Assembly: GCF_002953935.1 (NCBI RefSeq)
Contig: NZ_CP026514.1
Location: forward strand, 1,054,001 to 1,118,000
Direction: 5' to 3'
Source: Arthrobacter sp. PGP41
Lineage (GTDB): Bacteria; Actinomycetota; Actinomycetes; Actinomycetales; Micrococcaceae
DNA: 64,000 nt
Numbering within the stretch: position 1 is the first letter of the stretch; each line of letters begins with the position of its first letter. Below the pieces are notes generated by a model, which did not search any database, was not told the DNA's origin, and saw only the letters and a list, made by a program, of their open reading frames with translations. Shown here one piece after another: positions 1-30,994 of the stretch. The translations under genes and the position numbers were made by a program.

Positions 1-347
1 GCCCGGCCGTCGCCAAGGGCACCACGCCGAGCGGCGGGCAGGTCCCGGCGCAGGGACACCAGCCATTGGCGCTGAAGCTCGGCCGTTGGCACCAGGATCA
101 GGACTTTGATGCCCTGCCGGACTGCCTCGAAAGCGGCGGCGATTCCGACGCGCGTCTTGCCGGAACCGGTCACGGCCTCCACCACGCCGCGGCGCGCATT
201 CGAGTGCCAGGCCTTCAGCGCCTCCTGCTGCCACGGATACAGGAAGCCGTAGTCGTAGGAGGCAGGCACCGCCGCGGGCGGAGCCTGGACGGGCACCCGC
301 GGAAGCGTCGCGACCGGGTGGGACCCGGCGTCGGCTAGTTCTGGCAT
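1..347 (-). CDS. DEAD/DEAH-type helicase, N-terminal part (cut by window edge)
   Basis: Reading leftwards, the first about 115 codons are present and the gene runs off the left edge. After a Pro/Ala-rich leader come the sequence YPWQQEALKAW and a Walker A motif, AVTGSGKTRVGIA, followed by LILVPTAELQRQW (motif Ia-like). This order is that of a superfamily 2 helicase or restriction-helicase N-terminus. I chose the ATG at 347 because GGGGG lies five bases upstream; an in-frame ATG at 359 is possible but has no ribosome-binding site. It lies 78 bp downstream of the NERD helicase on the same strand, so the two may be co-transcribed. The C-terminal nuclease or helicase domains cannot be seen. Confidence 0.75.
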   Translation of the reverse strand, partial: MPELADAGSHPVATLPRVPVQAPPAAVPASYDYGFLYPWQQEALKAWHSNARRGVVEAVTGSGKTRVGIAAAFEAVRQGIKVLILVPTAELQRQWLVSLRRDLPAARRGALGDGR

Positions 348-425: not shown

Positions 426-2114
426 CTAACCGTCTTCCAGCACAGGTTTCCACGCCTGGCTCCGCGATAGCGCGAGCTTGAGCTCGCGGCCGCCGGCCTC
501 CTCCAGCAGCCCGGAATGACCCACAACCACCAGTAGGCTGCGTGCCCGGGACAGCCCGACGTAGAGCTGCTCCCGGGCCCGGTCCATGTCCTTGAAACCG
601 TTCACGCAGAGAACAACAACAGACCGTTCCAGGCCCTTGAAACCCAGCACATGGCCGTAGAACTCACCGTCGTTGGCGTGGAAGTCCCGCCAGTACTCTT
701 CCGTGGCGCCGCGCTTAAAGTAGTCCAAATGAATGGGGTGGCGGTCCTTGGTGGTGAGAAGCGCGATCTGGTTGTTCGCCCAGCCCTCGTCGATCAGCGA
801 ATCCAGGCAGTCCCCGGCGATCTCGAGCGCGTCCTCGGTTGGGCAGTCCACGAACCGGACGGGCAGGCCCGTGCTTCCGCGGGGCTTGAAGTATTCGCCG
901 GCGAATGGCTTGAACGTCTCAGCGATCTTGACGGTGTTCCGGAGGTTATCGTCGATGTGGATGGGCACGAAGGTGGCCATCGGCCCGCTGGTGAGGTCCG
1001 CCGTCGCGCCTCCCCAGCGCTGGTAGACGTCCTGCCGGTCGTCCATGAACGCGTATACCTCACCCGCGTACGGGTCGCTGGTGCACGCGAGAAGGGCGTC
1101 CCACCACAGGGGCGCGAAGTCCTGCGCTTCATCGACGACGACGGCGTCCAGCCGCTCGTGCGGCTCCAGGCCGGCTGCCAGCTCCTTCAGGAGGCGGGGC
1201 ATCTCGACGTCGAAATAGTCCTGCCCCGAGCCGTCCGGGACTCCCAGCCCGCGCACGTATTCGTGGAACTCGCCCGTGAACACCGGCTTGGCTTGCCGCT
1301 TCCATGTCCCGACGCGGTCCTGGAGGTATTGCCCGAGGCCTTTGTTGTAGCAGAAGAGGCCTACGCGTTTGCCCTGCTTGCTGAGCAGCTTGGCCTTCTC
1401 GACGGCGAGCCACGTCTTTCCGCTGCCCGCGCCGCCGGTGAAACGGACCCTGTTGAGTGAGCGGGTTGCCTGGAGCAGCACGGACTGGCGTTCCGTGAGG
1501 TGGTCCTGCTCTGCCTCGTCCTCGTGCGAGGTGGTGGAAGGTACGACGGCGGTGTCCAGGTTTCCGCCCAGCTTGCGGACGATGCGTTCCAGGAAGGCCG
1601 GGGCCAGCGGGGAGGCGCCGCCGCCTTCGTTTTCGATGGCTTGGCGGACGAGGTCGGCGGGGGACTTGCTGCCGGTCTGGTCGAGGATGAGCGACCGGGG
1701 GCAGCCTGCCATGGTCCAGTCCCGCGGCACGTCGGTGTAGGGCAGGCTGACCATGTAGACGCAGCGGCTGCTCAGGCGCGCACCGAGCTGGTTCTCCAGC
1801 CAGTTCTTGAGGGCGTGGAGTGAGCTCTGGGACTGCGCCACGGGGCTTTGGATCTTGCGTCTCTGGGTGCGGTCCGACTGGTACCACTGCCCGTCCGTGA
1901 TGCTGACCTGGCCGCCCTTGACCTCGATGGCAGCCATGCCAACGTTGGGCCAGAGGACCAGCAGGTCAATCTCGTATTCATTCCGGCCGTCGCGGACGTG
2001 GACCGAGTGGGCCAAGACGCAGTCATCGGGGAGGCTGTTCTTGAGGGCAGTCCAGACGGCCTTTTCCGCGTGATGTCCTTCGCCGAACTCCGGTTCTTCC
2101 GGAATGCACCTCAT
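426..2114 (-). CDS. NERD-domain protein with UvrD/Rep-like helicase
   Basis: An N-terminal NERD (nuclease-related) domain occupies roughly residues 10-130, with the acidic/lysine core EIDLLVLWPN...AAIEVKGG typical of PD-(D/E)XK folds. A superfamily 1 helicase follows: Walker A GGAGSGKT near residue 228, Walker B VVVDEAQD near 327, and the C-terminal helicase motifs LGFKGLERSVVV and VGLSRARS near 495-525. Such proteins are presumed DNA-processing enzymes and often occur in defence or mobile regions; the exact role is unknown. I chose the start at 2114 because GGGGG stands five bases upstream; an in-frame ATG at 2126 lacks a ribosome-binding site. The helicase cut by the left edge follows 78 bp downstream. 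Confidence 0.85.
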   Translation of the reverse strand: MRCIPEEPEFGEGHHAEKAVWTALKNSLPDDCVLAHSVHVRDGRNEYEIDLLVLWPNVGMAAIEVKGGQVSITDGQWYQSDRTQRRKIQSPVAQSQSSLHALKNWLENQLGARLSSRCVYMVSLPYTDVPRDWTMAGCPRSLILDQTGSKSPADLVRQAIENEGGGASPLAPAFLERIVRKLGGNLDTAVVPSTTSHEDEAEQDHLTERQSVLLQATRSLNRVRFTGGAGSGKTWLAVEKAKLLSKQGKRVGLFCYNKGLGQYLQDRVGTWKRQAKPVFTGEFHEYVRGLGVPDGSGQDYFDVEMPRLLKELAAGLEPHERLDAVVVDEAQDFAPLWWDALLACTSDPYAGEVYAFMDDRQDVYQRWGGATADLTSGPMATFVPIHIDDNLRNTVKIAETFKPFAGEYFKPRGSTGLPVRFVDCPTEDALEIAGDCLDSLIDEGWANNQIALLTTKDRHPIHLDYFKRGATEEYWRDFHANDGEFYGHVLGFKGLERSVVVLCVNGFKDMDRAREQLYVGLSRARSLLVVVGHSGLLEEAGGRELKLALSRSQAWKPVLEDG

Positions 2115-2221
2115 TGCCGCCCCCATATTGATAAACCGGCTCCCGGGCTTTGCGCTGATCCAACGTTAGCCGGGCTGGCCTGAATCACTACGGCGACACG
2201 GACAGGTCAAACTTCCCGATG

Positions 2222-2797
2222 TTAGGAGCGCGACTTGGCGGAGTCCTTGAAAGCGGCAAGTCCAAACTGGGCGCGGATATCAGCCAGGTCGCGGGTATTC
2301 CGTTCTATCTGCGCCATCTGGTCTTTTTCGATGAACCAGGAAAGGATGCGACTTGCGATCACAAGGCCTACCAGCAGTAGGAATGCCCAACCGGCCGCAA
2401 TGATGAAGTCCGGCATGGTCAGGAATGCATTTTTCAATGCAATGGCGTCGTTCAGGCTTCCGGTCAGGCTGCCGAGGATGTCATTCAGAGTATCGGTGAT
2501 TGGCTGAAAGATCGGTCCGGCAGAGAGCTGGGGACTCTCAAGTGTTGGATCTTTTCCGACAGACCAGCGCGGATCAGTGAGGTGGGCAAGAATATAGAAC
2601 ACCACCGCCAGATTGGCCGCAGCGAATGACATCGTTCCCGCAAGCAAAGCATTGACGGCCCTCGCTGTTATTTTCGGTAGAGAAGACACCGGGCGCCCAA
2701 CGGCAAAGAATCCGCCGATAATAATGGCAGCGAGCCATACAAGAGTTTTCAATGTATCGACGCTGAAATCGCTCAGCATTTCCATGGCACGTTCCAT
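2222..2797 (-). CDS. Putative membrane protein of unknown function
   Basis: 191 residues with hydrophobic segments near 16-35 (VWLAAIIIGGFFAVG), 48-70 (LLAGTMSFAAANLAVVFYIL) and 133-155 (AAGWAFLLLVGLVIASRIL). A polar tail with a short charged helix follows (KDQMAQIERNTRDLADIRAQF). I do not recognise the family. It stands alone on the minus strand between the RNase H-like gene and the NERD helicase, with about 100-230 bp free on either side. The start codon could also be one of the next in-frame ATGs (2785, 2779); none has a clear ribosome-binding site. Confidence 0.6.
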   Translation of the reverse strand: MERAMEMLSDFSVDTLKTLVWLAAIIIGGFFAVGRPVSSLPKITARAVNALLAGTMSFAAANLAVVFYILAHLTDPRWSVGKDPTLESPQLSAGPIFQPITDTLNDILGSLTGSLNDAIALKNAFLTMPDFIIAAGWAFLLLVGLVIASRILSWFIEKDQMAQIERNTRDLADIRAQFGLAAFKDSAKSRS

Positions 2798-3024: not shown

Positions 3025-3924
3025 TCAGGCAGCCAAGCCCATATTTCGCTGTTCGACAACGCTTGCGGCCATTCGCAAGGTCTCGTGTGCTGGAAGCTCG
3101 GCTTCCTTGTGCCTTCGGGACATCACTGCCAGCCGGTCAGCGAGAACGTTCAGTTCATGATCGGCGTGGCCTTTGACCCACTGGAAATGAACGTCGGCAA
3201 ATGCGGTCAGGGCCTGTATCCGTTGTATCTCTTCGCGGCAGGCTGCAGTTGATTGTCCGGGTTGGAAGCCGCTGTCGTTGAGCATCCTCGCGGCTGTGAG
3301 GTTGTCGGAGGAAACGGTGACGGCGCAGCGTCCGTCCAAAACGCCGGTATAGGCGTTCTTGGCAGCACCGAGAGCCAGCCGGATTGCCCGAAGCTCGCTT
3401 TCCAGGATGCTTCCGCCGCCCACGGCCTTCAGGCCGGGGCGAAGCGGCAGGCCCTTTCCGAAATCCAATACCCAGCCGTGCCCTGCCCAAGGAGTGCGGT
3501 GTCCGATGGAGGCGTCTGTAGCAATCTCCAGCCGGCAGAACAGTGCATCAAGCCTCTCGGCCACGGCTTTTTCTGTCACCACGACGCCTACAGCAGGCGG
3601 ATAGGAAAGATCAACAGGAAGCCCAAGCCCCAGCAACCGTTCGCGTGCAGTATCCACAACGGAAAAGACGGGCTCGTTCCCGCCCGCCGCCAGTTCCGAA
3701 ACGGCGCGGGCGGCCTCCGCGTAGGCTTTGCCCCAATGCGGCCCTGCGGCGGCCTCGGTGATCCAGCCCGACCGCACTCCCAGAACGGCAGATTCGAACG
3801 TTCGTGCCACGGCCCACAGGATGAGGCCCCGTCGGGACACGATCAGCACTGTAAGTCCGGAACGCTTTGCGACAGCTTCAGCGGCCGAAAGGGATCGGCG
3901 TGACGGCGGAGTAGGGAACGGCAT
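3025..3924 (-). CDS. RNase H-like domain protein
   Basis: 299 residues. The second half carries a complete RNase HI-type acidic tetrad: Asp in EIATDASIG (about 136), Glu in LESELRAI (about 175), Asp in VSSDNLTA (about 205) and Asp in NVLADRLA (about 264), with the QWVKGHADHELN signature just before the last. The first about 120 residues are an extra N-terminal region unlike the RNase HI hybrid-binding domain, so the protein is about twice the usual length. Cleavage of RNA in RNA-DNA hybrids is the family activity; the substrate here is unknown. The start is well supported by AAGGAGG five bases before the ATG. No operon partner is evident. Confidence 0.8.
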   Translation of the reverse strand: MPFPTPPSRRSLSAAEAVAKRSGLTVLIVSRRGLILWAVARTFESAVLGVRSGWITEAAAGPHWGKAYAEAARAVSELAAGGNEPVFSVVDTARERLLGLGLPVDLSYPPAVGVVVTEKAVAERLDALFCRLEIATDASIGHRTPWAGHGWVLDFGKGLPLRPGLKAVGGGSILESELRAIRLALGAAKNAYTGVLDGRCAVTVSSDNLTAARMLNDSGFQPGQSTAACREEIQRIQALTAFADVHFQWVKGHADHELNVLADRLAVMSRRHKEAELPAHETLRMAASVVEQRNMGLAA

Positions 3925-4176: not shown

Positions 4177-5649
4177 CTATGAGGGACGCGTCCCGACGTT
4201 CCACCTCAACTCCGTCGCCTCCACCGGATGGCGGCCTCGTTGGATGGCCAGGAGAATTTGGGCAGCGGCTTCCGTTCGCGGTACCCCTTCCTTGAGCCAA
4301 TTGGTGTTTTCCGGGCTGGGAGCCGACCAACCGTTGCTGGAGAGCCAATGCGTGCTCATGCGCCACTCGTGAGAAGGAATACCCAAATCGGAGACGATTT
4401 CGCACCTAACTCCATTGCTGCCAGGCGTGGCCCGAGCATAGGGCGCGGCGGTGTGACTGTACTGGATGTGCAAAAAGGAACCGGATGGTAGTGCTTCGAT
4501 TGCTTCGGCAACGAGGTTCTCGACGACCCGCCATTCTTCAAATTCCCTAGCTTCCCATTCATTAAGCTCTTCCAGCGTTCCCCAGCCGGAGTCGCAGTCA
4601 ATGTACGAGGGCTCGTCGGGCTGCATATCCTCCGGCGGGTCCGATGGGAGAATTGTTTCTACCGCCGCTTCCCAGCTTCCGTAACGACGGATGAGCTCTA
4701 CGGCTGAAGGATGTTCTTCTCTCACGGCGGCGGCCGCGATAATCCACTGGTCGTAAAACTCTATGTCCATGGGATTCCCGAATTGCATGCATTCCTCGGT
4801 GGAACGGTCGAGGACGTCCAGGTAGTCCAGCTCGGTGAAGCGGTGGTCACTAGACAGCATCCGCATACCCACCGAGTTCAGCAAACTTTCCCAAGACCCG
4901 TGACCGTAGCGTGCACGCAAGGTTCGTCCCGGAACGGGCCAGGGATCAGCCGGGTCGTTCGTAATTGAACCAAGGCGCCTCGACACTGCCTGCATACCGC
5001 TCTCGTAGTCCTCGTGAGAAATGGTCGTGATTGTTCTAGCTCGGATGGCAAGAGCTGTTGCTTCGATGACGGCTAGAATCTCTGCCATGCGCCGATATGG
5101 CAAGCGTTCATTCAGAATGCCGCGGAGCTCCGACACTGCGGTGAGGGACATCTTTCCCAAGGCCAATTGGTAGTCCGGTTCTATTTCATGGTGTACTCCC
5201 GTGACATACAGCAGGCTTAGCTTGTCACCGATCCGCCGTGTCGGGATGTCCTCGACCGTTTGACCACCGGGAATACCCGGGATGTGCAGCAGTTCCGCGG
5301 CGGTCGGGATGTCGATTGAAATACCCAGTGCTTTTAAAACTTTGGGTATGTCATCGCGACCAATTTCCGAGGCGTGGAGCCGCTCAACCATTTCCTCGTT
5401 GGCGAGCAGCACCTCGTTGGTTGCCGACGCGCGCCGCCGAACCGCGCGTGAGCGCTCCAACTCATCGCTTGGGCTGCTTTCCGCCATGATCAGGAGGCAG
5501 ACCTCTTCAAGGTCCCGCTCCGTCGCCTTGGCGATCGCACGGAGCGGATCACCCTTCCTGTACCAGTCCATAAAGTCAGACTCGATTATCCAGTCTGACG
5601 GCACATGAATGCCCACATGATGCTGTTCCTTGCCGACAACGTCCCCCAA
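4177..5649 (-). CDS. Uncharacterised protein with HNH_repeat-like modules; tandem paralogue of the upstream HTH gene
   Basis: 490 residues from a TTG start 11 bp after the preceding reading frame. No enzymatic motif is recognised. Its parts align in order with the upstream HTH protein: WYRKGDPLRAIAKATERDLEEV matches RYADGETLDAIGQSFGITRERV; SLTAVSELRGIL matches DLSLMSELRAAL; and the module PWPVPGRTLRARYGHGSWESLL matches PWPPTRQTVMKRFGGWNEAL. A second module (FTELDYLDVLD ... HPSAVELIRRYGSWEAAV, about 272-335) matches the frameshifted tail of the upstream gene. These Y/F-G-x-W modules resemble the homing-endonuclease-associated repeat. About 150 extra C-terminal residues are unique. The helix-turn-helix consensus is weaker here than in the paralogue. 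It is probably the last gene of the ARPP-1/ADP-ribosylglycohydrolase operon. Confidence 0.7.
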   Translation of the reverse strand: MGDVVGKEQHHVGIHVPSDWIIESDFMDWYRKGDPLRAIAKATERDLEEVCLLIMAESSPSDELERSRAVRRRASATNEVLLANEEMVERLHASEIGRDDIPKVLKALGISIDIPTAAELLHIPGIPGGQTVEDIPTRRIGDKLSLLYVTGVHHEIEPDYQLALGKMSLTAVSELRGILNERLPYRRMAEILAVIEATALAIRARTITTISHEDYESGMQAVSRRLGSITNDPADPWPVPGRTLRARYGHGSWESLLNSVGMRMLSSDHRFTELDYLDVLDRSTEECMQFGNPMDIEFYDQWIIAAAAVREEHPSAVELIRRYGSWEAAVETILPSDPPEDMQPDEPSYIDCDSGWGTLEELNEWEAREFEEWRVVENLVAEAIEALPSGSFLHIQYSHTAAPYARATPGSNGVRCEIVSDLGIPSHEWRMSTHWLSSNGWSAPSPENTNWLKEGVPRTEAAAQILLAIQRGRHPVEATELRWNVGTRPS

Positions 5650-5659
5650 TGCTTCTCGC

Positions 5660-5889
5660 CTATCCCTTCACCGAACGGATCGCATGCGCCCAAGTGCCGT
5701 AGATATTCCTTACCGATGCACCGGAGGGGCGGGAACGGCTCTCAGCTAGCTCCTGCTTCACCCATTCGTCGTAGCCTGCAAATGTCGCATTCGTCTCTTC
5801 TGCTGACGAGTGAAAGCAAAAGTCACTCACCGCGTCGTCGTAGTCCTCCCGGGTGAATTTGACGAGACCTTTGGGCCGCCCCTTGGACG
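5660..5889 (-). pseudogene. Frameshifted C-terminal module of the sigma-4-like HTH gene
   Basis: This stretch encodes GRPKGLVKFTREDYDDAVSD ... PSGASVRNIYGTWAHAIRSV in the frame that would be reached if one extra G were present in the C6 run (plus strand) at 5894-5899. The upstream frame stops immediately after that run. The encoded segment is the expected second Y/F-G-x-W module and aligns with residues about 272-335 of the downstream paralogue. Joined, the gene would run 5660-6687 and encode about 342 residues. Natural disruption, programmed slippage or a homopolymer sequencing error are all possible. Confidence 0.6.
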
Positions 5890-6687
5890 CTAGCCCCCCA
5901 TGGCCTCCAGGGCCTCGTTCCAGCCCCCGAAGCGCTTCATCACCGTTTGTCGGGTGGGCGGCCACGGGAAAGCTCCCTGCCGAGACACTAGGCCGAAGGC
6001 CACAACGAGTTCGTCGCGGAGCTCCTGGTAACGGGCGCCGGTGATGCTGACGGCCGGGTCCTCCGACAAATGCTTCTGCGCGGCGCCAATAACTCCCAGG
6101 ATGGTCGCCACGTCGTCCGGCGACGCTTCGGCGGACTCCAGGGCGGCGCGCAGCTCACTCATAAGGGACAGGTCCAGGTTCACAACCGCCCACTCACGGT
6201 CGGGCGCAAGATTCCGGTCGGATCCCAGCAGGAACCAGATCCCGGCAGCCAGTGCCTCTTGGGAAAAGATGTCGTCGACCTGGGCCTTGGAGAAGAGAAT
6301 CGCCGATCCCCTCAATGCATCCTCGGCCAGATCGACGTCGATCGTGGGGAAGAGTGCCTGGAGCTTCAGGACGGTATCGGGGCGGCTGACACCGCGCTTC
6401 GCCATCTGGCGGGCGAGGTTACCGTACTGAGCCAGGAAGGCTTCGTGCGCCGCCTTGGTGGCCGCTTCCCGTGCCGCGATCTGGTTCTTGCGGGATTCCT
6501 CGGCGTTCGTGCCGCCGACCTTGGCGATGATCTGCCGGACGCGCTCGCGGGTGATGCCGAAGCTTTGGCCGATGGCGTCCAGCGTCTCGCCGTCCGCGTA
6601 GCGCTCAACCATTGCAGCGTCGCGCTGCTCCCGGCTGAGTTCAGGAGTTGTTGTCATGGTCATATTCCTATCAGCAGCCTCGGACAT
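5890..6687 (-). CDS. Sigma-70 region 4-like helix-turn-helix protein
   Basis: 265 residues. Near residues 27-56 it has DGETLDAIGQSFGITRERVRQIIAKVG, which is the DNA-binding helix-turn-helix of sigma-factor region 4. A helical middle follows, then near the end a module PWPPTRQTVMKRFGGWNEAL that resembles the homing-endonuclease-associated repeat. The start ATG overlaps the stop of the ADP-ribosylglycohydrolase gene as TAATG, so translation is coupled. The reading frame ends at a G6 run; the next frame continues with plausible protein (see 5660-5889), so the visible product is probably truncated by one module. A transcription or DNA-binding role inside the ADP-ribose operon is inferred; no family function is known to me. 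Confidence 0.7.
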   Translation of the reverse strand: MSEAADRNMTMTTTPELSREQRDAAMVERYADGETLDAIGQSFGITRERVRQIIAKVGGTNAEESRKNQIAAREAATKAAHEAFLAQYGNLARQMAKRGVSRPDTVLKLQALFPTIDVDLAEDALRGSAILFSKAQVDDIFSQEALAAGIWFLLGSDRNLAPDREWAVVNLDLSLMSELRAALESAEASPDDVATILGVIGAAQKHLSEDPAVSITGARYQELRDELVVAFGLVSRQGAFPWPPTRQTVMKRFGGWNEALEAMGG

Positions 6688-8186
6688 TATTGGGCACCTG
6701 CGCGCGTGGCACCGCCGGCCGCCGTGTCGGTGATGGTTTCGGCTTCTGCCAGCACCTGCATGAAGAAGGGATTCGGCCGTGCCCCGGGCAGCACGCGCTG
6801 TAGTTCTTGCAACGCTTCCAGCGGAGAAATGCCGGCTACACGAGCCCCGTATAACGCTGCAACGGTCGGCGTCCGGGATTCCGCGCGGACACAGTGCAGC
6901 AGCACCGTTTTGCCCTCAGCACGGTAGCGCTCGACGGCGGCCGCCGCCTCCCCGAGGACATACGCGGCATGTGCGTTGTCGCCTTCAACAGAAGAGTCGA
7001 CCACCCAGAAGGTGGCATGGTTCTCAAGTGCCACGTCCGGAACATCCAGCGTGCCCAGTCTGCAGAGCGACACCACCGCATCGATGCCCAGCTCGGCCAC
7101 CCGCTGAAGCGAGCCGACCCCGCCAAGCCATACTCCGTCGTCGTGCGGATGCCGGACCAGGGAGTCCGTGCGGCTCCACATGCTGTAGTCGTGCCGTTTA
7201 GCCCGTGGCCAAGAACCGAGCCGCTGGCCTTCGCCGCCTCCCAGCTCCATGCCCAGGACCATCAGGTCGCGGGCATGCATCCCCGGCCACCCGTGAAGCC
7301 GCTGACGCCACTCGAAAGGCACTGCCGTGTAGCCGCAGGCAGCTCCCAGCAGGCCGCCGGCGATGGCGGCCACCGTGTCCGTGTCGCGCCCGCCCCGTAC
7401 CGCCTCCTCCAAGGCAGCCCGCAGGTGAGCCGGGCCGGCAACCGAAAGGCCTGCATGATGGATGGCGCTCCACGCCCCCTGGAACGCCTCCACCACCCAG
7501 CCGTTGCGGGTGAAGTCGCGGGGCCGGGATCGCTCGGCCGTCTCGATCCGCCCCAGCCACACCGAAGCACGATCAGCAGGCAACAGCGACAGCCCGGCCC
7601 GGACATCAAGCTGCCCGGTGATAACCGCATAACGGATGGCGACGCACCACAGCCCGCAGGCCTCCTGTGCGTCAGGATCGGCATGGGTCAGGTCGCTCAA
7701 CTCAGCCGCAGCAGCCATCAGCTCAGAGGGCTCCCGGTCCAGGTATGCAAGCGCGAGGGGAGCAGTCCGCATCAGCGACCCGTTGCCGGCGCTCCGTCCG
7801 GTCCGAGTATGGAAGTCAGCGGCCGCGGCAGTGAAGTCAGCGGCCTCAACCTCGCGGCCAGCAGCGGCAGCCAGCCGCCGGGCGGCCGCGATGACGGAGC
7901 TCGTCTGGGCCCCGACGTCCTTCGCCTCGGCCGCCCACGAGGACCATGCCCGGACCACTGCGGTGAGTGCCGCAGGGGAGGAGGAGCCGCCGTCGGACGC
8001 GGACTCCAGCAGCGCCTCGGCGATCAGGATGGCCATGGAGGTGTCGTCGGTCCACTCGGCCGGCGCGAACCCGAACGGGCCGCCGCCCTTCATGGTGACG
8101 TCGGCGCCCTCCGGCAGCGGCGCACCGAACTCGTAGCCGGCCCCAAGGGCGTCGCCGGCAGCATTCTGCAGAGGGTTCAGTTTCAT
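6687..8186 (-). CDS. ADP-ribosylglycohydrolase fused to a Cys-based protein phosphatase-like domain
   Basis: 499 residues. The N-terminal about 310 residues are an ADP-ribosylglycohydrolase (ADPRGH/DraG family), with GDALGAGYE (11-19), the metal-binding EWTDDTSMA (44-52) and GRDTDTVAAIAGGLLG (about 268-283). The C-terminal about 160 residues are a dual-specificity phosphatase/rhodanese-like domain with the P-loop HCVRAESRT (C-x5-R, Cys near 434). The predicted role is removal of ADP-ribose from macromolecules or small molecules, with phosphate removal from the product. Fusion or neighbourhood of these two domains with ARPP proteins is a known NAD-metabolism arrangement. The ATG overlaps the ARPP-1 stop (ATGA) and the stop overlaps the next start (TAATG), so the three genes form one translationally coupled operon. 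Confidence 0.9.
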   Translation of the reverse strand: MKLNPLQNAAGDALGAGYEFGAPLPEGADVTMKGGGPFGFAPAEWTDDTSMAILIAEALLESASDGGSSSPAALTAVVRAWSSWAAEAKDVGAQTSSVIAAARRLAAAAGREVEAADFTAAAADFHTRTGRSAGNGSLMRTAPLALAYLDREPSELMAAAAELSDLTHADPDAQEACGLWCVAIRYAVITGQLDVRAGLSLLPADRASVWLGRIETAERSRPRDFTRNGWVVEAFQGAWSAIHHAGLSVAGPAHLRAALEEAVRGGRDTDTVAAIAGGLLGAACGYTAVPFEWRQRLHGWPGMHARDLMVLGMELGGGEGQRLGSWPRAKRHDYSMWSRTDSLVRHPHDDGVWLGGVGSLQRVAELGIDAVVSLCRLGTLDVPDVALENHATFWVVDSSVEGDNAHAAYVLGEAAAAVERYRAEGKTVLLHCVRAESRTPTVAALYGARVAGISPLEALQELQRVLPGARPNPFFMQVLAEAETITDTAAGGATRAGAQ

Positions 8187-9148
8187 GCCATCTCCATCAG
8201 GGGGTGTTGGGTGTTCCAGCCGGTCAGGTGCGCCAGCTGGGGCCGACGCTGGGGGAGTGCGACGGCGATGCCGGCGGCGGTAACCGCTCCGGCGGCGCGG
8301 GAGACATTCCGGCTCCGGAGGGAGCCGTGGTTCCGTACCTCCACAGCCGCAACGCCGCCGTCGAACGTTCCGAAGTCCATCGCCTGGACGTGCGCTGCGA
8401 AGTCGCGGGCGTACTGGCCGGGCATCGGTCCTGAGTTCAGTGCCTGGGGTGGCAGGAGTTCAAGGTCCAGCAGCGCCGACTCGATCAGCTGCCGGTAGTG
8501 GCGGCGGAAGAGCGTGTGGGTGCCGAAGACCTCCAGGAGCAGCGGCTGCCGGCCCAGGCCGATCACCACGCCGCGCTGGCCCTCCAGCGGGGCGGGCGCG
8601 TCCGCGGCGCTGAACCGGTTCCGTTCCTCCTTGTCGTCCTTGAACCAGTCCATGTGCTGGAGGAGGGAGCTGGTGGCAGAGGCGCCGCGGGCGGCGTCGA
8701 AGCGGCGGACCCGTTCCCAGATGCGGTCCTGCCGGTCGCCACCCCATTGCCTGGTGCGACCGTTGGCAAGCTCGGACCACACGTTCATCGGAGCGCGCCG
8801 TGCCTGCCGCCGGTGGCTGTGCTGTCCGGCTTCCCAGCGGCCGGCTTCCACGCAGAAGGTGTCGATGTCGCGGCTTTCGCCCGGGCCGAGGACGACGTCG
8901 CTGGCGCACGTCCGGTGCTGCTGGCCGCCTTCAAGCAGCTCGCCTTCCAGCAGCAGTGCCGGGTGCGGGCCGTTGTTGGTGACGGTGAGGCTGGACACCT
9001 GGGCGCCGCTGGCGAGTTCGGTGACGGCGACGTCTGCGTGGGTGCCGGTGCTGATGCCGAGGCTCCCGGGGGCGGCGGTCCAAACGGGGAAGATGCTGAG
9101 CGGGCCGAGGCTGCTGCCGGCGCCGACGTGGAGCTGGGGAACTTTCAT
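8183..9148 (-). CDS. ARPP-1 family protein (ADP-ribosylglycohydrolase/phosphatase-associated)
   Basis: 321 residues, matching the ARPP-1 family (DUF6569-type): MKVPQLHVGAGSSLGPLSIFPVW at the start, ELLEGGQQHRTCASDVVL, the block FCVEAGRWEAGQ near 96-107, then QARRAPMNVW. The biochemical function of ARPP-1 is not established; it was named for operonic association with ADP-ribosylglycohydrolases and rhodanese/phosphatase proteins in predicted NAD/ADP-ribose pathways, exactly the context here. First gene of the operon: AGGAGGT stands five bases before the ATG, and a 20-bp palindrome lies 18 bp upstream. Its stop overlaps the next start by ATGA. Divergent from the NUDIX/NrtR-type regulator. Confidence 0.85.
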   Translation of the reverse strand: MKVPQLHVGAGSSLGPLSIFPVWTAAPGSLGISTGTHADVAVTELASGAQVSSLTVTNNGPHPALLLEGELLEGGQQHRTCASDVVLGPGESRDIDTFCVEAGRWEAGQHSHRRQARRAPMNVWSELANGRTRQWGGDRQDRIWERVRRFDAARGASATSSLLQHMDWFKDDKEERNRFSAADAPAPLEGQRGVVIGLGRQPLLLEVFGTHTLFRRHYRQLIESALLDLELLPPQALNSGPMPGQYARDFAAHVQAMDFGTFDGGVAAVEVRNHGSLRSRNVSRAAGAVTAAGIAVALPQRRPQLAHLTGWNTQHPLMEMA

Positions 9149-9165
9149 GGTGACCTCCTGGTGAT

Positions 9166-9185
9166 TTATCGCATTTCTGCGCTAA
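9166..9185. promoter_or_regulatory. Palindromic operator, site 1 (ARPP-1 side)
   Basis: TTATCGCATTTCTGCGCTAA is an imperfect palindrome of the form TTA-N2-GCA-N4-TGC-N2-TAA. It lies 18 bp before the ARPP-1 start. The same design recurs 48 bp away (centre to centre) on the regulator side. The likely binder is the adjacent NrtR-type regulator; this is inferred from position and symmetry. Confidence 0.7.
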
Positions 9186-9213
9186 TTGAGCCCAGTATGC
9201 ACCGGTTGCTTCT

Positions 9214-9233
9214 TTAGCGCAAGACTGCAATAA
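9214..9233. promoter_or_regulatory. Palindromic operator, site 2 (regulator side)
   Basis: TTAGCGCAAGACTGCAATAA has the same TTA-N2-GCA-N4-TGC-N2-TAA form as site 1 and ends 8 bp before the regulator's GTG start. Binding here would block the regulator's own transcription start, so autorepression is likely. Confidence 0.7.
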
Positions 9234-9241
9234 ATAGAGGT

Positions 9242-9907
9242 GTGAAGGATTCCAAGAACAGCCCTAGCCCGTCCCTGCTTGACTTTCCGCGGCCGTCGGT
9301 GGCGGTGGACACTGCGGTGCTGACGGTCTCGGAGGGGAGCGTGTGCGTGTTGCTGGTGCGCCGCGCGGAGGACCATCAGCACGGGAAGTGGGCGCTGCCG
9401 GGCACCTTCTTGAGGGAGCGCGAGACCCTGGCGGACGCGGTGCTGCGGTGCCTGCGGGAGAAAGCAGGGATCTCCGGCCGTGTGCCACGGCAGCTGCAGG
9501 TGTTTGACGAACCGGGCCGTGACGACCGCGGGTGGGTGCTGTCGGTGGCGCACGTGGACGTGGTGCCGCTGGCGGCTTTGGAGGTGGCGTTGAAGTCCGA
9601 CGGCGTCCGGCTGGCTTCCGTGACCGGGGAACCGGAGCTGATCGCCGGATTGCCTTACGGGCACACGGATATCGTGACGAAGGCTGTGGAGTGGTTGCGG
9701 GTGGCCTATTCGGAGGCCCCCGATCCTGGTGCCCTGCTGAATGAGCCGTTCACTTTGAAGGAACTGCGGGAGCTGCATGAGGTGGTGGCGGGCGCCCCGT
9801 TGATGCGAGACACTTTCCGGCGCTTTATGGAGCCGAAGCTTGCCGGGACGGGGCAGATGTCTGACGGGACGCGGGGGAGGCCGTCGCGGTTATGGGTGCG
9901 GCCCTGA
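9242..9907 (+). CDS. nrtR: NUDIX-domain transcriptional regulator, NrtR-like
   Basis: 221 residues from a GTG start. The N-terminal about 140 residues are a NUDIX domain (VDTAVLTVSEGSVCVLLVRRAED...KWALPGTFLRERETLADAVLRCLREKAG); the NUDIX box is degenerate (G-x5-E retained, REUxEEx changed to LREKAG), as in regulators that bind rather than hydrolyse ADP-ribose. The C-terminal about 75 residues (EPFTLKELRELHEVVAG...RDTFRRFMEPKLAGTG) are the winged-helix DNA-binding part of NrtR proteins, which control NAD-related genes with ADP-ribose-type ligands. It is divergent from the ARPP-1/glycohydrolase operon with two matching palindromes between, so it very probably controls that operon. The symbol is by family, not by proven orthology. 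Confidence 0.85.
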   Translation: MKDSKNSPSPSLLDFPRPSVAVDTAVLTVSEGSVCVLLVRRAEDHQHGKWALPGTFLRERETLADAVLRCLREKAGISGRVPRQLQVFDEPGRDDRGWVLSVAHVDVVPLAALEVALKSDGVRLASVTGEPELIAGLPYGHTDIVTKAVEWLRVAYSEAPDPGALLNEPFTLKELRELHEVVAGAPLMRDTFRRFMEPKLAGTGQMSDGTRGRPSRLWVRP

Positions 9908-9972: not shown

Positions 9973-11847
9973 ATGAGCCTTGAAGCCTGGACTCCTCTCG
10001 AATCTGTCGACGATGAACTTTTGACCTTGGAAACCGCCGCGATTCTGACGTTGGCCCGCGAGTACAGAGCGGACAAGGTAGAGGCTGCAGTTGACGCATG
10101 GACTCCGCTGCAGATTGCCCTGCTCCAAGAAACGAGGAGAGAGGAACAAATATCAGAGGCAATTAGTGTGCTCGGTGAGTTGCTACACGTGACGGGTCTC
10201 AGACTTCCGTCTGCGGTTAACAGGGCGGAATTGCCAGCATTTGTTGAGGCATTGCGTGAACTGTCTCGACTCGTTCGTGTGGCGCCGGATCGCTCAAGCA
10301 GTGTGAGGGCAGCCGTGGGCCTCCTCAATCTGGCTTGTGGAGAGTCCATGGAACAGAGCGCTGACGTGTCCAAACTTTTTCGCAGCGGACTACTGGACAC
10401 CGCATGGCAACATGTCCGACGCTTTGTTGCCGCGCCCGCTTCTGAAGAACGACGAATTCAGCCACCCGAGATTGGCACGCCAGCCTCGAGCGAATGGAAT
10501 GCGCATGACAGGTCGCTTCTCGGTGACTACGCGCCCTGGTCTTGGGGAGTCGGTCCCATGTTCCAAACTCTGGGCGGCTGGGATGCGACCTGGCAAATGG
10601 CACGACGATCGTCCAAAGAAGAACACTTGGACATGATCCGTTACTGGGCACCGCTTCCGCACCTCGTCCTTGGACCCCTTGGGTGGTCGGATCCGGCGTT
10701 GGGCGTGGCCCGTTGGATCCTCTTGGGAATGCCACAGTCGACGCCGGAATTGTCATTGTTAGGGCGTGTTTGGGGTGCCGAGGCACTTATGTATTTCTCA
10801 CATCCGCAAATGGACTGGATACCGGAGTCTCACGGGTGTCTCGGTTTTCAACCTGGAACATCCGGGCGCCGGATCAGCCGCATCTACGAGTCGCGCGAAA
10901 TCGCTGAAGCCTTTTGGGGCTGCGGAGGACTTCATATGCAGGTCCATTTGGAGTGGCAGATGTGCGGTCAACAAGAACCAACAGGAATCTGGCCTCCTGT
11001 ATATACAAGTGTGGTCGATCGTCATAATGTCGTTCTTCACCTTGATGCTACAAGGGGGTGGCACACGCAATTGCAGACTCTTGGTGACAGACTTGCCGCT
11101 GAGCTCGCGGACCCGAGAATTGAGGTCACGATAATCGCGCCACCCGTCGGCATGCTCGGCACCTTCAGGCGATCCCAGCTGACAGGCCTCTGGTATTCGG
11201 GCTCCCACGAGGCTCATACCTTGGGCCACACGAAGCTGAACACTCCCGTTCGTAGACTTCCACCAACCGGTGCCGTAAAACCGCCGACCCCGGTGCATTG
11301 GAACCCATCCCTTCGGCACACGAACGCCGCGGCGTTCTGGCTTGCCAGTGAACTTGCTCGCCGGCACCCCCACTACGTGCTCTTGGGTGACTCTGCTAGC
11401 AGTCTTCGGCTGGTGAGTGACACTGGGCCGATCATCAAAATTTCGCGACATGCAGCAGTGGAAGCGGGGGCAATTGTGTTGACCCCCAAGGAGTTTTTTG
11501 CAGTGGACGACAAGCGGAAGCTCATTGAAGACCTCGAAAGCAAGTTGGGGTTGCCCGCGAGGAAACGGGCAGCAGTTACGACGAGACGGACCGTTATGTA
11601 CCGGGCAATGGCGCATATCCTGGCCGCGACCGTCGGCGACAAAGCAACCTGGGATTTTGTTCCTGCTGGTGCAGAACCCGCGGGGGCCTGGTATATGACG
11701 CGGGATGCAAAACCCATTGCATTCCTGACGCGAGACGGGACAGTCAGTTTCCCGGAGGGATCGGTCAACCTGTTAGAGCGATACGAAGCTCACTCAAGAA
11801 AGATGACTGCCATGATCGGAGAGGTCTTCCGGCTGGTCATGCCGTAG
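9973..11847 (+). CDS. Unrecognised 624-residue protein next to mcrBC
   Basis: I recognise no family. The protein is soluble and rich in Trp, with a helical Glu/Leu-rich N-terminus (about 1-120), a middle part with GWDATWQMARR and WAPLPHLVLGPLGWSDP, and a C-terminal part beginning around HTNAAAFWLASELARRHPHYVLLGDS. No Walker, nuclease or transmembrane motif is evident. The ATG has no ribosome-binding site; a TATGGT hexamer ends seven bases before it, which would suit a leaderless message. Its last 54 bp overlap the 3' end of mcrC on the other strand. The position between a regulator and a restriction system, and the lack of recognisable motifs, make it a candidate accessory or independent defence gene; this is inference only. 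Confidence 0.7.
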   Translation: MSLEAWTPLESVDDELLTLETAAILTLAREYRADKVEAAVDAWTPLQIALLQETRREEQISEAISVLGELLHVTGLRLPSAVNRAELPAFVEALRELSRLVRVAPDRSSSVRAAVGLLNLACGESMEQSADVSKLFRSGLLDTAWQHVRRFVAAPASEERRIQPPEIGTPASSEWNAHDRSLLGDYAPWSWGVGPMFQTLGGWDATWQMARRSSKEEHLDMIRYWAPLPHLVLGPLGWSDPALGVARWILLGMPQSTPELSLLGRVWGAEALMYFSHPQMDWIPESHGCLGFQPGTSGRRISRIYESREIAEAFWGCGGLHMQVHLEWQMCGQQEPTGIWPPVYTSVVDRHNVVLHLDATRGWHTQLQTLGDRLAAELADPRIEVTIIAPPVGMLGTFRRSQLTGLWYSGSHEAHTLGHTKLNTPVRRLPPTGAVKPPTPVHWNPSLRHTNAAAFWLASELARRHPHYVLLGDSASSLRLVSDTGPIIKISRHAAVEAGAIVLTPKEFFAVDDKRKLIEDLESKLGLPARKRAAVTTRRTVMYRAMAHILAATVGDKATWDFVPAGAEPAGAWYMTRDAKPIAFLTRDGTVSFPEGSVNLLERYEAHSRKMTAMIGEVFRLVMP

Positions 11848-13014
11848 AAATGTTGGGCCTTCCATAGCCCAAACCTCTTCCTGTGCCTGAGAAGCAAACT
11901 TGGCTGAAGGTATCTGTGAAGGCGGGGTGAGAACGTCCAGCAGTTGCTGGCGAACCTCGATCGCCGACCTTCCGAGGTCAACCGTGGCTACCGTGAACCG
12001 ATGGCCGCTCGACTCGAAACTCTCCCGGATCGATTGTCCGACAGAGGGATACAGCAGGATGCCTTCCGCATACAGTGAGAGAGGGTCATCTACGGCTTCC
12101 TGGGACCGAACATAGGCGTAGATCTGATAGAGATGGCCGCTCTTGAAGGTCTCTCCGCCGAACTGGCCCTTAGCTAGCGCAGAAGTGAATTTTGTGTCGA
12201 TGATGATACGCCGCTTGACCGTGGAGTTTTCCAGCAGAATATCCGTTTGCATTTTGGGAATGAACGCGGCGGCGCCGGGAGTTTCGTTGTTGGAGTTCCA
12301 TGAGATGAACTGTCCGGTACTGGTCTGCCAGCCAGATGCACTGGCCGCGGCCCGGTAGAAGCCTCCCACCGCGCGTTCGAACAGGCGCCGGAACTCGTGG
12401 TCAGTGAGGCTTGATCGTCGGAGCCGTCCCGTTCCTTCATCGCTCGGCAGTATGAGTTGCAGGGCCAGGCGAGCCGCCAGGAGTACCGCCCTGTCCTGCA
12501 CATCGTTGCGTGAGAACCGAACGGTCGTGTCGCGGACAGTCGATCGTGTATCGGTGCCCCTCACGCCAAGGTCGGACAACCGCCTAGCATCGGCTCGGCA
12601 TCGATGGCTCAGCGATTTAGAGACGACCAAGGGAGCCAAAAACGTAAGAGCAGCCTGAACCAGCCGATTTCTGGGAGTGTCTACGGTCAGTTCCTCGTAG
12701 CGGCACGCCACTTGCCCCCGGCTCAGCAGCTGATGAGACTCTGTTCGCAGGACGTCAATTCGGCCGCGGACTCGCCGGAGGTCCCCTTCAGTAGGAGCAA
12801 ATCCCGGTGTTAGTGGCTTCTTCAGGCGGTCCGCTACGCTCGCGACAAGTATCTCGCCTAGTAGGTCCGGTAGCCGCTCCGGGTACTCTTCAATGCCGCT
12901 TAGCGATGGGCTTCCAGTTTTATATAAATCGGATGCATACAGCAGAAGCAGCCAGAGGTTTCTGACTGGAATACGGGTTTTTCCGGAAACGACCACGAAA
13001 GCATCCGGACCCAT
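11794..13014 (-). CDS. mcrC: McrC-like nuclease subunit of a McrBC restriction system
   Basis: 406 residues. The N-terminus (IPVRNLWLLLLYASDL) and the block RGRIDVLRTES...RYEELTVDTPRNRLVQAAL are typical of McrC. The PD-(D/E)XK nuclease core is Asp in QTDILLE (near 256) and DTK in RIIIDTKF (near 271). McrC cleaves DNA once translocated by the GTPase McrB on modified DNA. The start is 2 bp after the mcrB stop, so the genes are coupled. The 3' end overlaps the converging 624-residue gene by 54 bp, which is unusual. Confidence 0.9.
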   Translation of the reverse strand: MGPDAFVVVSGKTRIPVRNLWLLLLYASDLYKTGSPSLSGIEEYPERLPDLLGEILVASVADRLKKPLTPGFAPTEGDLRRVRGRIDVLRTESHQLLSRGQVACRYEELTVDTPRNRLVQAALTFLAPLVVSKSLSHRCRADARRLSDLGVRGTDTRSTVRDTTVRFSRNDVQDRAVLLAARLALQLILPSDEGTGRLRRSSLTDHEFRRLFERAVGGFYRAAASASGWQTSTGQFISWNSNNETPGAAAFIPKMQTDILLENSTVKRRIIIDTKFTSALAKGQFGGETFKSGHLYQIYAYVRSQEAVDDPLSLYAEGILLYPSVGQSIRESFESSGHRFTVATVDLGRSAIEVRQQLLDVLTPPSQIPSAKFASQAQEEVWAMEGPTFLRHDQPEDLSDHGSHLS

Positions 13015-13016
13015 AT

Positions 13017-15185
13017 CTAATTCAGTCCCTCGACGAGCTTTGACACTTCTGCCTCCGCTGACGAGGGATCTTCAAACCAATACTCCTTGAGCGTCGGAGC
13101 AATTTCTGTTGTTACTACGGCTCGGAACCAGCTCACGTATGAATCCACACGCTCCTCTGCCGGTGGCGTCACGAAGCTGTGGCCGAGCATAAACTCTGCT
13201 CCCAGCGTCGAATCGTCCCGGATGGATGCGTTCAAAGCGTCAAAGCGGCGGCGGACGGTCTCGAGGTGTGCTACTTCCACGTTGTGTTTGGCCTTCATCC
13301 ACTGCAACCAGCTGTCGTTCAAGGCAGGTGCGAGCGAAACGAACCCAAACCGACGGCGGAACGCCAAATCCATGATGGCAAGGGAACGATCTGCGAGATT
13401 CATCGTGCCAATGATATGGAGATTGCTCGGGACATGGACCGTCTCGTCTGATGCACGCGGATAAGCAAGATGGAGAGCTTCCCGGGGAGAGCGCTTCCCG
13501 GCCTCGATGAGCGTAAGCAGCTCACCGAAAACCTGGACGGGGTTTCCGCGGTTTATTTCTTCTATGAGAACGACGTGAGGCACCTCGGGAACTGCGTTTG
13601 CGCGCTCAACCATCTCGAGGAAAGGCCCATTCACCAAGGTCAACTTGCCGTCAGAGCCTGGACGCCACCCTCGTACGAAGTCTTCGTACGACATGTTCGG
13701 ATGGAACTGCACGGCCCGGATAGCCGACTTCAGGTCTTTACTGCCGATCAATGCGTATGCCAGTCGTCGCGCGAGCCAGGTCTTGCCCGTGCCGGGAGGG
13801 CCTTGAAGGATGATGTTCTTCTTCGACCGCCAACGCGCCAGGATCTCCGTCAGCTCGGATTCCGACACGAAGCAACCGTCGAGGACAATGTCGGCGACCG
13901 AGTAAGGCTTTGTTGGGGACGGCGGTGCCAACTCCACCGGATCTCCGTCCGCCTCGTCACTCCGCCCGGCCGGGTCCAGGAATGCGGTCCACGAGAGCTC
14001 CGGGAAGGAGTGCACTGGATATTCAGGATCATCGAACTTGGCTACCAAAGTGTCCAATATGTCCAGGTACCGGCTGCCGTCCGCCTGGAACAAGTTGCCG
14101 TCCAGCATCAGAGCAGTCTTTAGGTATCTTCGCGACTGACCGTCGAGCGGCAAGAAGTTCCAAGGGCGGATCCAAAATAGGCCCATACTCAGTTTTCCGC
14201 CGACACCACGAATACCCCGGGCACGGTCATAAGCTTCGGCAAACCTTATTCGCGCCTGATCCTCAGAGGAGCTGGCCAGGGAGAGCGCTGCCTCAAAGGC
14301 GTCCCACAGCGCATCGATGTCGCCGGACGCCCTTTCAGGCTTGTAGGAAAAGAACCACGAGTTCTGGTTGTTCAGCAGTGGGATTGCATCGAAAGCAGTA
14401 GGCGGAGGCGTCGACAGGCCCAAGGCCTTGGCCCAGTCTCCGGCCAAAGCCGTTCGTTTCGCATGGGTAATTCCGCGATTGAAGGACCCGAAGACAGTGA
14501 ACGGGCAGATATCGTCAAGCGGCATGGAAACGCCGTTCTCATCCTTGTCCGTCAGATAGTTAAGATTCTCGTGACGCGTCTGTAGGTTCTGAAGAGCTGC
14601 CAGGAGCTCGCCCCGACGATCCTTGTACGAAAGCAACGCAGTGGCCAACTCTTCATAAAACGGCGTCCACTGGAAGTCCTCTTCGGGACTCGGGTCCTCA
14701 TCGCCGAACCGTTTGGACCAGGCCGCATCGTTGCGGAACCTGCTGATGTCCTGCTGCTCATTGTCAAAGGCGAAGCGGATCAGCGCTTCGCTCATCCAGC
14801 TCCCGGTAGCCACCTTCCAGATCGTTGCCCGTCCCGTGTAGAAGTACCATTCGCGGGGCTGCTCCAGCGGGTTCCAGTCGACGTCGACTCTGCGGCCATC
14901 GCCGTGGTTACGTGTGACACGTCCCGTTGCCTTGATGGCCATGGTTGAGACAAGGTGGCCGCGAGTGTCGAAAGGGACGCCGTGCTTCCGCACGTAGCTC
15001 GCCTTTATCGCGATGCGGTCACCGGGCCGCATGGATTTTACGACGTCGAGGTGACGGTCCTCAAAGCCGTTCTCCCAGACTCCTTCGGCCAGAAACCGGG
15101 CGGTTTGGTCCTGGGGGTCCCGATCCGAGAAAAACGCTCCGACGAACCAGTTCTGTTTCGGGGTATTTACCTCTTCTGACAACAT
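13017..15185 (-). CDS. mcrB: McrB-like AAA+ GTPase of a McrBC restriction system
   Basis: About 722 residues from the ATG at 15185, chosen because homologous protein begins at NWFVGAFF and AGGAG lies upstream; longer in-frame starts add unlike sequence. The N-terminal 140 residues look like a modified-base recognition (EVE/YTH-like) domain (DPQDQTARFLAEGVWENGF...SMRPGDRIAIKASYVR). The AAA+ motor has Walker A LQGPPGTGKTWLARRL near 463, Walker B VVLIEEINRGNP near 540, IGTMNLADRS near 595 and the arginine finger FRRRF near 608. McrB drives NTP-dependent translocation for McrC cleavage; the target modification is unknown. It is divergent from the PLD/DUF3427 helicase gene. Confidence 0.9.
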   Translation of the reverse strand: MLSEEVNTPKQNWFVGAFFSDRDPQDQTARFLAEGVWENGFEDRHLDVVKSMRPGDRIAIKASYVRKHGVPFDTRGHLVSTMAIKATGRVTRNHGDGRRVDVDWNPLEQPREWYFYTGRATIWKVATGSWMSEALIRFAFDNEQQDISRFRNDAAWSKRFGDEDPSPEEDFQWTPFYEELATALLSYKDRRGELLAALQNLQTRHENLNYLTDKDENGVSMPLDDICPFTVFGSFNRGITHAKRTALAGDWAKALGLSTPPPTAFDAIPLLNNQNSWFFSYKPERASGDIDALWDAFEAALSLASSSEDQARIRFAEAYDRARGIRGVGGKLSMGLFWIRPWNFLPLDGQSRRYLKTALMLDGNLFQADGSRYLDILDTLVAKFDDPEYPVHSFPELSWTAFLDPAGRSDEADGDPVELAPPSPTKPYSVADIVLDGCFVSESELTEILARWRSKKNIILQGPPGTGKTWLARRLAYALIGSKDLKSAIRAVQFHPNMSYEDFVRGWRPGSDGKLTLVNGPFLEMVERANAVPEVPHVVLIEEINRGNPVQVFGELLTLIEAGKRSPREALHLAYPRASDETVHVPSNLHIIGTMNLADRSLAIMDLAFRRRFGFVSLAPALNDSWLQWMKAKHNVEVAHLETVRRRFDALNASIRDDSTLGAEFMLGHSFVTPPAEERVDSYVSWFRAVVTTEIAPTLKEYWFEDPSSAEAEVSKLVEGLN

Positions 15186-15310
15186 GCCTCGGGAACTCCT
15201 GTGTTCATGTAACGGCCCGATGCGGCCAATGATCATTAGACCACCACCCAGGGCAATCTTGAGTGCATGACGCTTGAATGATCTTTCGCAGTGATTGCGG
15301 TTTTGCACGC

Positions 15311-18300: not shown

Positions 18301-18478
18301 TCTGATCTTCACGAGGGACACAGCGGACGACGAGACCGGGCTGACAGTTCCGTATACCTGCCTGGGGCAGGTGGACTACGTTCAGCACGCGGGGGAGAGG
18401 CCGATAGCCATTACCTGGAAGCTTCATCGAGCGATGCCCGCAGATGTGTACGTGACGGCTGCTGCGGTGGCGCTATGA
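15323..18478 (+). CDS. PLD nuclease-DEAD/DEAH helicase with DUF3427
   Basis: 1051 residues. A phospholipase D-like nuclease module lies around 130-290, with the HxK motif in TRLHAKAWLF and GSSNLSQAAL. A superfamily 2 helicase follows: VAATGTGKT near 340, VVIDEFHH near 432, LTATPERGDG near 460, and the C-terminal motifs FNEGLDLPQVD and LQQLGRGLRRAEGK. The last about 250 residues fit DUF3427. Such PLD-helicase proteins are frequent in defence islands and are presumed to degrade foreign DNA; the trigger is not known. The GTG start is the only one near a -10-like hexamer and could be leaderless. Its stop overlaps the start of the small zinc-motif gene (ATGA), so the two are co-translated. It is divergent from mcrBC. 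Confidence 0.85.
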   Translation: MTNSIGGGSAQQLPAGLYELLNTDVLGQRLGRNAELEPMFADVEDDDVPDILSRHVADAVRDALAAARPVDRVALANRLLETLQQKGRIANGPTVLQSLHRPDTLKRRQLRRPTTRLSDSALLTNSNEDPNLAAELRAEIESADSVDLLCAFVRWTGIRLLEPALEQLRDRGVKLRVITTTYMGATERRAIDELVNRYGAEVKISYETHSTRLHAKAWLFRRNSGFHTAYVGSSNLSQAALLDGLEWNVRLSSVATPALLQKFEVTFDSYWEQRAFQSYDPERDGERLDAALERNGGRRTAVPDAPTGLEVHPFLHQEEMLEDLEAERHKGYNHNLLVAATGTGKTVIAALDYKGLRAAAGRDLKLLFVAHRQEILKQAMRTYRDVMQDGAFGELYVGDHKPKEWKHIFASVQSLSSLGVEQLEPDFFDVVVIDEFHHAMAPTYRRLLDHLKPQQLLGLTATPERGDGVDVAKQFFDGRTASELRLWDALDADLLVPFHYFGVSDDVDLSQLEWKRGNYDTTQLSALYTGNDARAAKIIRELRDKATSTDQMRAIGFCVSVQHAHYMAEVFNRAGIASVAVDGTTDNADREEALRRLGKRDINCIFAVDLFNEGLDLPQVDTILLLRPTQSATVFLQQLGRGLRRAEGKAVLTVLDFIGQQRREFRFDLRYRALTGYGRKELEKAVEDEFPYLPSGSQIVLDRVAQKVVLDNIKAQLRFNRAQLVRNIASYAETELEAYLERSGNEVKTIYRSTRDSWTAYLRQAGLIEGLSPLETVLRGKLEELSDAEEKKLLGRMAALIHVDDPERAAAYSMLVAPDAPRYADLGMREQAFARMLFYTLWDDGGGFKTYDDGLDHLRGYQFVCREIRQVIKLGVTASKHAAKSLGAGLQHIPLLSHATYRREEVLAALQYGSLEQGKNVQHREGVAWCPATSTDAFFVTLNKDDKKHSATTMYKDYAISPELFHWESQNATSPTSPTGRRYLDRASHGSKVLIFTRDTADDETGLTVPYTCLGQVDYVQHAGERPIAITWKLHRAMPADVYVTAAAVAL

Positions 18479-30581: not shown

Positions 30582-30994
30582 GGGGCTGCACCACGCGATG
30601 TCCAGCCTGCCGGGGCGCACGCACGGAAGGCGAGGCGCCCAGGGAGGTGCCGCCGTCGGGCATTCCCAGCAGCGACTCCCCACCTCGTGCACCGCACGCT
30701 AAGCCGGAAGTCCACTTAGTCGCAGCCCCTTCCGGCCCTACTGAACGGCGGCGTCTGCAGTCAAAGCTCGCTGCGTCGGCCGGACGGCTCTTTCTCCGTG
30801 CGCCTAGCCCCGGGAGGGCCTAAAGAGCCGCAAACAACGGGTTCCATTGGTCCGGGCCGTAACCTACCGGTCTTTCGGACCGTTGCGCAGTGCCAGAACC
30901 AGCAGACAGGCAGGATTGTCAGCGCCGGATGCCATGATTGGTTGCATTGATTGAATGACGGTACTGATGGCGGTGCCGTAGATGGGGGAATGTG
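30582..30994. other. Gene-free spacer, about 410 bp
   Basis: No supported gene. It must contain the promoter of the large Hhe gene, but no convincing hexamer pair was identified. GGGGG six bases before the ATG at 30995 is the Hhe ribosome-binding site. Confidence 0.4.

Follow-up and report, generated by a model that had tools for sequence, protein, structure and literature searches.

The window analysed here is a stretch of 64,000 nucleotides from Arthrobacter sp. PGP41 (NZ_CP026514.1, positions 1,054,001 to 1,118,000), part of a 4.27 Mb single-contig genome (G000 below), with Arthrobacter the main source of the nearest named proteins. Our subject is a pair of minus-strand genes lying downstream of an ADP-ribosylglycohydrolase (ARG) gene. 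The nearer, gene A (5890..6687), encodes 265 residues as it stands and comprises a helix-turn-helix (HTH) like region 4 of sigma-A, a helical middle and one HNH_repeat-like module. Gene B (4177..5649, 490 residues) combines the same type of core with a degenerate HTH, two terminal modules and a C-terminal TY-Chap3 domain. Both open reading frames lie where a preliminary description of this DNA had placed them.

Homology of genes A and B

The relationship between the two proteins can be demonstrated in several ways. BLASTP aligns 246 positions, 23% of them identical, with an e-value of 2e-8, and profile-profile comparison, a check proposed in the preliminary description, extends the match from the HTH through the second module, with a probability of 99.9 and an e-value of 8.9e-32 over 317 columns. 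Structure prediction, also proposed there, gave the same order of helices in the models, which were not superposed, of B and of P0070, an intact relative of A. A and B are thus homologous, as distantly related paralogues. In a tree of the family B forms its own deep clade with 100/100 support, so that the pair does not derive from a recent duplication. The core search left out eight short or core-less open reading frames, including the out-of-frame fragment from the window, and locus L089 was dropped before the tree was built. The earlier view of full-length tandem paralogues therefore stands for the region from the HTH to the second module, but not for the whole length, since A is broken and B bears an additional TY-Chap3 domain. 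By eye, a cysteine-rich, zinc-ribbon-like tail is visible at the C-terminal ends of both P0138, of A type, and P0065, of B type; as these belong to different clades, tails of this sort seem to have been exchanged between the two lines.

Domains of gene A and its break

In Pfam, residues 25-56 of A (6520..6615, minus strand) match Sigma70_r4 with an e-value of 1.7e-7 and 31.1 bits, above the cut-off of 24.1, bearing out the sigma-4-like HTH already proposed for this protein. With P0070 as the query, the HTH shares 34-45% identity with solved primary-sigma (SigA) region 4 chains in most rows, and 45 relatives show its TRERVRQI stretch with little or no variation. The resemblance to SigA region 4 thus covers both sequence and predicted fold but, unlike primary sigma factors, A has no match to sigma region 2 in Pfam at e-values up to 1, only to region 4, and is therefore not a sigma factor.

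The terminal modules of A and B resemble the homing endonuclease associated repeat (HNH_repeat, PF18780). Some relatives exceed its cut-off of 26 bits (scores of 49.4 and 27.6, for example), while the two window proteins fall below it, A weakly at 22.2 bits and B at 14.7. The recognisable part of the first module of A spans residues 244-264 (5896..5958, minus strand), and this is the only module that A now encodes. The second lies at 5660..5890 (minus strand; G000:C1:1059660-1059896), in a different frame from 5890-6687, and is still 79% identical to P0070. DNA alignment places the break near 5900, where the window is 4 nucleotides shorter than genomes G217, G227 and G096, and it is this shortening that puts the second module out of frame. 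Gene A is broken in this genome. The list of relatives (120 of the 132 found, including the window's own copy, P0068) agrees, as 117 have lengths of 290-431 residues and the short exceptions are P0068 (255 residues), P0092 (245) and P0178 (164). The tail of P0178 is unlike the rest of the family.

The stop codon of the ARG gene overlaps the ATG of A at 6687 (TAATG), so that the overlap previously read as coupling is present, but the start itself is uncertain because 58 of the 120 listed relatives begin slightly further in, with MTTT or MTMTTT.

Gene B

Residues 372-463 of B (4261..4536, minus strand) match TY-Chap3 (PF22552) with an e-value of 1.8e-9 and 38.7 bits, well above the cut-off of 27, although only middling structural matches were obtained for this domain, which the preliminary description had missed. 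Here the domain is fused to an A-type scaffold, yet in genome G062 a TY-Chap3 protein without the A-type core (A-core) follows ARG. The second module of B (residues 273-331; 4657..4833, minus strand) is seen in Pfam, in the model and in the profile-profile alignment. The recognition helix of its HTH lacks the TRERVRQI stretch of A. No nuclease domain was found in either A or B in Pfam at e-values up to 1, and identification of the pair as a homing endonuclease was rejected on that ground.

The ADP-ribose operon

The gene preceding A (6687..8186, minus strand) encodes an ARG domain (PF03747, E = 1.9e-47, 162.8 bits) fused to a dual-specificity-phosphatase-like domain, together called ARG-DSP. 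The latter matches positions 13-132 of the 133 in the DSPc profile with an e-value of 1.6e-6, its 28.4 bits lying under the cut-off of 33.5, and the sequence contains a C-x5-R stretch which we take to be the phosphatase motif. Next come ARPP-1 (8183..9148, minus strand; PF20208, E = 1.1e-56) and, on the plus strand, an NrtR-type Nudix regulator (9242..9907) with NUDIX and NrtR_WHD matches over their cut-offs. The intergenic region between them (9149..9241, no strand assigned) likely contains the NrtR operator, as predicted from two boxes common to several relatives. By eye, these boxes look shared between the window and the corresponding gaps at loci L070, L071, L080, L081 and L082, and are less clear in L074, L078 and L079. 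Adjoining NrtR is a TY-Chap2 protein of 624 residues (9973..11847, plus strand; PF22553, E = 2.3e-23), which gives the ARG system another chaperone besides B. On the far side of B lie an RNase-H-like gene (3025..3924), a membrane-like protein whose sole Pfam match is below cut-off and which is present in some relatives (2222..2797), and a recurrent accessory gene for a NERD nuclease with a superfamily 1-type helicase (426..2126; NERD and UvrD_C_2 above Pfam cut-offs), all on the minus strand. The NERD domain presumably has the restriction endonuclease fold.

The same set of parts was proposed in 2022 by Iyer et al. (PMC9503650, section 3.8), who predicted that ARG-centred operons strip off ADP-ribose put on host molecules by phage enzymes. 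The predicted parts are Nudix or WYL regulators, phosphatases, ARPP, TY-Chap1-3 and restriction endonuclease or helicase accessories; T4 Alt and ModA/ModB are also mentioned in that paper. The window shares with these systems ARG, ARPP, a Nudix regulator, TY-chaperones in the form of TY-Chap3 (B) and TY-Chap2, and a nuclease of restriction endonuclease fold with a helicase, and the candidate counterpart of their phosphatase is the domain joined to ARG, with its match below the cut-off. Likewise, no coupled ADP-ribosyltransferase was found: of the open reading frames between 426 and 18478, the 13 that were scanned match neither this enzyme nor a sirtuin in Pfam. Protection against phage ADP-ribosylation is the function predicted for the system, in that paper as well. 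The suggestion of an undescribed conflict system is thus superseded, and the finding of A and B adds a variation to a known system without defining a separate one. In section 3.8 and the other passages searched there is no mention of A-type HTH and HNH-repeat proteins, of the RNase-H-like gene or of an A-core/TY-Chap3 fusion, nor were A-type proteins found in the literature searched, figures and supplements lying outside this coverage. The apparent novelty is the A-core as a modular unit, with a sigma-A-region-4-like HTH and with phosphorylase-superfamily or TY-chaperone partners.

Linkage across genomes

Neighbouring genes were sought by tblastn with fixed query sets, matches being kept at 40 bits or more in one survey and 42 bits or more in the other. 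Matches to A of at least 277 bits and to B of at least 237 bits were considered strong, the next lower scores being under 90 bits, A-B cross-matches apart; for the RNase-H-like gene the threshold was at least 200 bits, with a split copy in G217 also counted. These thresholds exclude the vestigial A genes in G009 and G260 (see below), the core rows of the groups labelled g3, g6 and g12, and 17 of 31 RNase-H rows (ten of g22, with G035, G048, G055, G072, G092, G115 and G288).

The family is represented by 295 genomes, of which 25 have ARPP-1, 11 have strong A and six have strong B, the genomes with A or B belonging to five genera. ARPP-1 accompanies A in eight of the 11 and B in all six; taken together, it is found in 11 of the 14 genomes with A or B but in only 14 of the other 281, with P values that ignore kinship. 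It lies within about 5 kb of A in six of the eight genomes and about 9-11 kb away in G183 and G272. Layouts vary. A directly follows ARG in G000, G217 and G084, and an RNase-H-like gene is followed by A in G227, G062 and G105. AddAB-like genes adjoin A or B in G183, G265, G272 and G260, lie one gene off in G241 and are near A in G105. In view of this variability, A and B are swappable additions to an otherwise constant core of ARPP-1, ARG and NrtR. The earlier claim that the two genes belong to the ADP-ribose operon thus holds as a recurrent association, but of an optional cassette.

A proposed accessory cassette for an ARG-centric system

We give about even credence to the reading that Arthrobacter-type bacteria carry A and B as an optional accessory cassette for their ARG-centric conflict system, B bearing the chaperone and A the HTH. 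As judged from their context, they likely act as scaffold and chaperone accessories. A phage enzyme would ADP-ribosylate host molecules, and ADP-ribose would relieve repression by NrtR, leading to expression of ARPP-1, ARG-phosphatase and the accessory genes. The ADP-ribose would then be removed and processed by ARG and its phosphatase. With TY-Chap3 mounted on a helical scaffold of A type, B may be a version of the chaperone of this system, and would hold modified or misfolded proteins. Intact A, with the scaffold and the HTH and no chaperone part, might place the scaffold on DNA or promoters, and the proteins may contact one another. In this genome, with A broken, B probably carries on alone.

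Several observations weigh against this interpretation. In G123, of the same genus, the genes for helicase-sigma, NERD-helicase, RNase-H-like protein, ARG, ARPP-1 and NrtR stand in the window's order without A or B, while A occurs without ARPP-1 in three of 11 genomes. The kinship left out of the P values counts in the same direction, as does the weakness of structural matches outside the HTH. The A-core also reaches well beyond the system. The A profile matches in 54 of 396 genomes of the order at E of 1e-8 or better (in G599 by the HTH alone), and in other families of the order it occurs alone or fused to PNP_UDP_1. A-core matches at E of 1e-6 or better are present in 31 genomes (24 of g3 and seven of g6, G036 and G120 being omitted for weaker core matches), none of which is among the 25 with ARPP-1. 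When 45 core proteins of neither A nor B type were scanned, 26 of them from g3 or g6, TY-Chap3 was found in 25, HNH_repeat in 18, PNP_UDP_1 in five and Sigma70_r4 in none. Fusions of the core to TY-Chap3 are thus independent of ARPP-1. Six g3, g6 and g12 loci examined by tblastn likewise yielded no match to ARG or ARPP-1 at 40 bits or more, which argues against an ADP-ribose-specific role of the core and for a general scaffold.

A real possibility, a shade under even in our estimation and compatible with the accessory-cassette reading, is that A in this genome is a decaying, functionless gene and only B matters. The 4-nucleotide shortening with loss of the second module, and the odd tail of P0178, fit such decay, and two related genomes keep no more than relics of A: an open reading frame of 67 residues in G009 (L081:9578-9781), with the HTH nearly whole, and one of 65 residues in G260 (L080:10470-10667), with only its first part, both having an A-like C-terminus and an adjoining B-type gene. 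The core and both modules of A are open in all eight genomes where A matches strongly and B does not, and decay is seen in three of five genomes with B against none of eight without (Fisher P = 0.035, from 13 related genomes). In G241 a B-type gene is present without a strong match to A. Yet A is intact in G217 and G227 despite the presence of B. In the window, moreover, the reading frame is still open through the HTH and most of the core and, given the 79% identity of the out-of-frame part, A was either lost only lately or may yield a shortened product that is still functional.

The main rival, which we think unlikely overall, holds that A (with the RNase-H-like gene) and B form a nucleic-acid-directed module of defence islands, for which the ADP-ribose operon is merely a frequent neighbour. 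A would then be a DNA-binding partner of RNase H, NERD-helicase or AddAB-like helicase-nucleases. The RNase-H-like gene is indeed strongly matched in eight of the 11 A genomes, compared with 14 of 295 overall, and adjoins A in six of the eight (G227, G183, G265, G272, G062 and G105). The AddAB-like neighbours described above fit equally, as do the A genes without ARPP-1, near a PDC-S37-like protein in G096 and beside YqaJ and NERD-helicase in G239. However, linkage to ARPP-1 is strong for the RNase-H-like gene too (12 of 14 genomes), A comes close behind ARG-DSP in three genomes, and every genome with strong B has ARPP-1. In G217 the RNase-H-like gene is split and has a stop (L070:431-1177), so that this accessory decays too.

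It is improbable that A regulates transcription in the island, reading -35-like DNA through its HTH, with B a co-regulator that has lost DNA reading. The near-invariant TRERVRQI stretch, its absence from B and the identity to primary-sigma region 4 are in keeping with this, but the operon already contains NrtR, the A-core is widespread without a Sigma70_r4 match, and truncated or relic A in several strains would be unexpected for a needed regulator. RNA polymerase is a known target of phage ADP-ribosyltransferases of the T4 type, and sigma region 4 contacts -35 DNA; we nevertheless think it very improbable that the A-core, as an undescribed actinobacterial scaffold with interchangeable parts (a sigma-A-region-4 mimic, a phosphorylase-superfamily enzyme or a TY-chaperone), uses the sigma-4 mimic in ARG systems to dock the machinery that removes ADP-ribose at promoters or on RNA polymerase, the enzyme there cleaning transcription complexes on site.

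The accessory-cassette reading links an uncharacterised, modular, DNA-binding-like family with a predicted anti-ADP-ribosylation defence system. The chaperone-scaffold fusion, the sigma-A-like HTH and strains in which one member is lost and the other kept offer handles on both.

Other A-core fusions and the surrounding island

A contig-wide scan, dominated by HTHs like those of sigma factors, gave at least 18 loci, mostly short HTH matches, of which L089 alone was examined further. In the f3 family a phosphorylase-superfamily domain is joined to the A-core at L117 (7579-8979), L118, L119, L120 and L121, with PNP_UDP_1 matched at L117, L119, L120 and L121. The five PNP fusions among the 45 core proteins form one clade. 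The fusion at L117 lies about 2 kb from a gene for the ribonucleotide reductase large subunit. In g3, the core gene is flanked by tex and a GmrSD_C protein at two of three loci examined (L083 and L126), L125 having other neighbours; the TY-Chap3 score is just under the cut-off at L083 and well over it at L125.

The ADP-ribose genes lie inside a defence island. Its members at 11794-47148 of the window include McrBC-type genes (11794-15308), a type IV restriction-like helicase (15323-18478), a transposase (25823-26563), GmrSD (27038-29296) and a PDC-S37-like protein (30992-37471), together with Wadjet JetA and JetC and an Eco57I-type methylase. At the opposite edge, positions 1-218 (minus strand) hold the end of a helicase-sigma gene, adjoining the NERD-helicase, of the kind seen complete at L071:14806-17211. 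There a DEAD/ResIII helicase is fused to a sigma-70 set in which regions 1.2, 2 and 4 exceed their cut-offs and region 3 is weak, and parts of this fusion resemble the PbeA and MzaA profiles.
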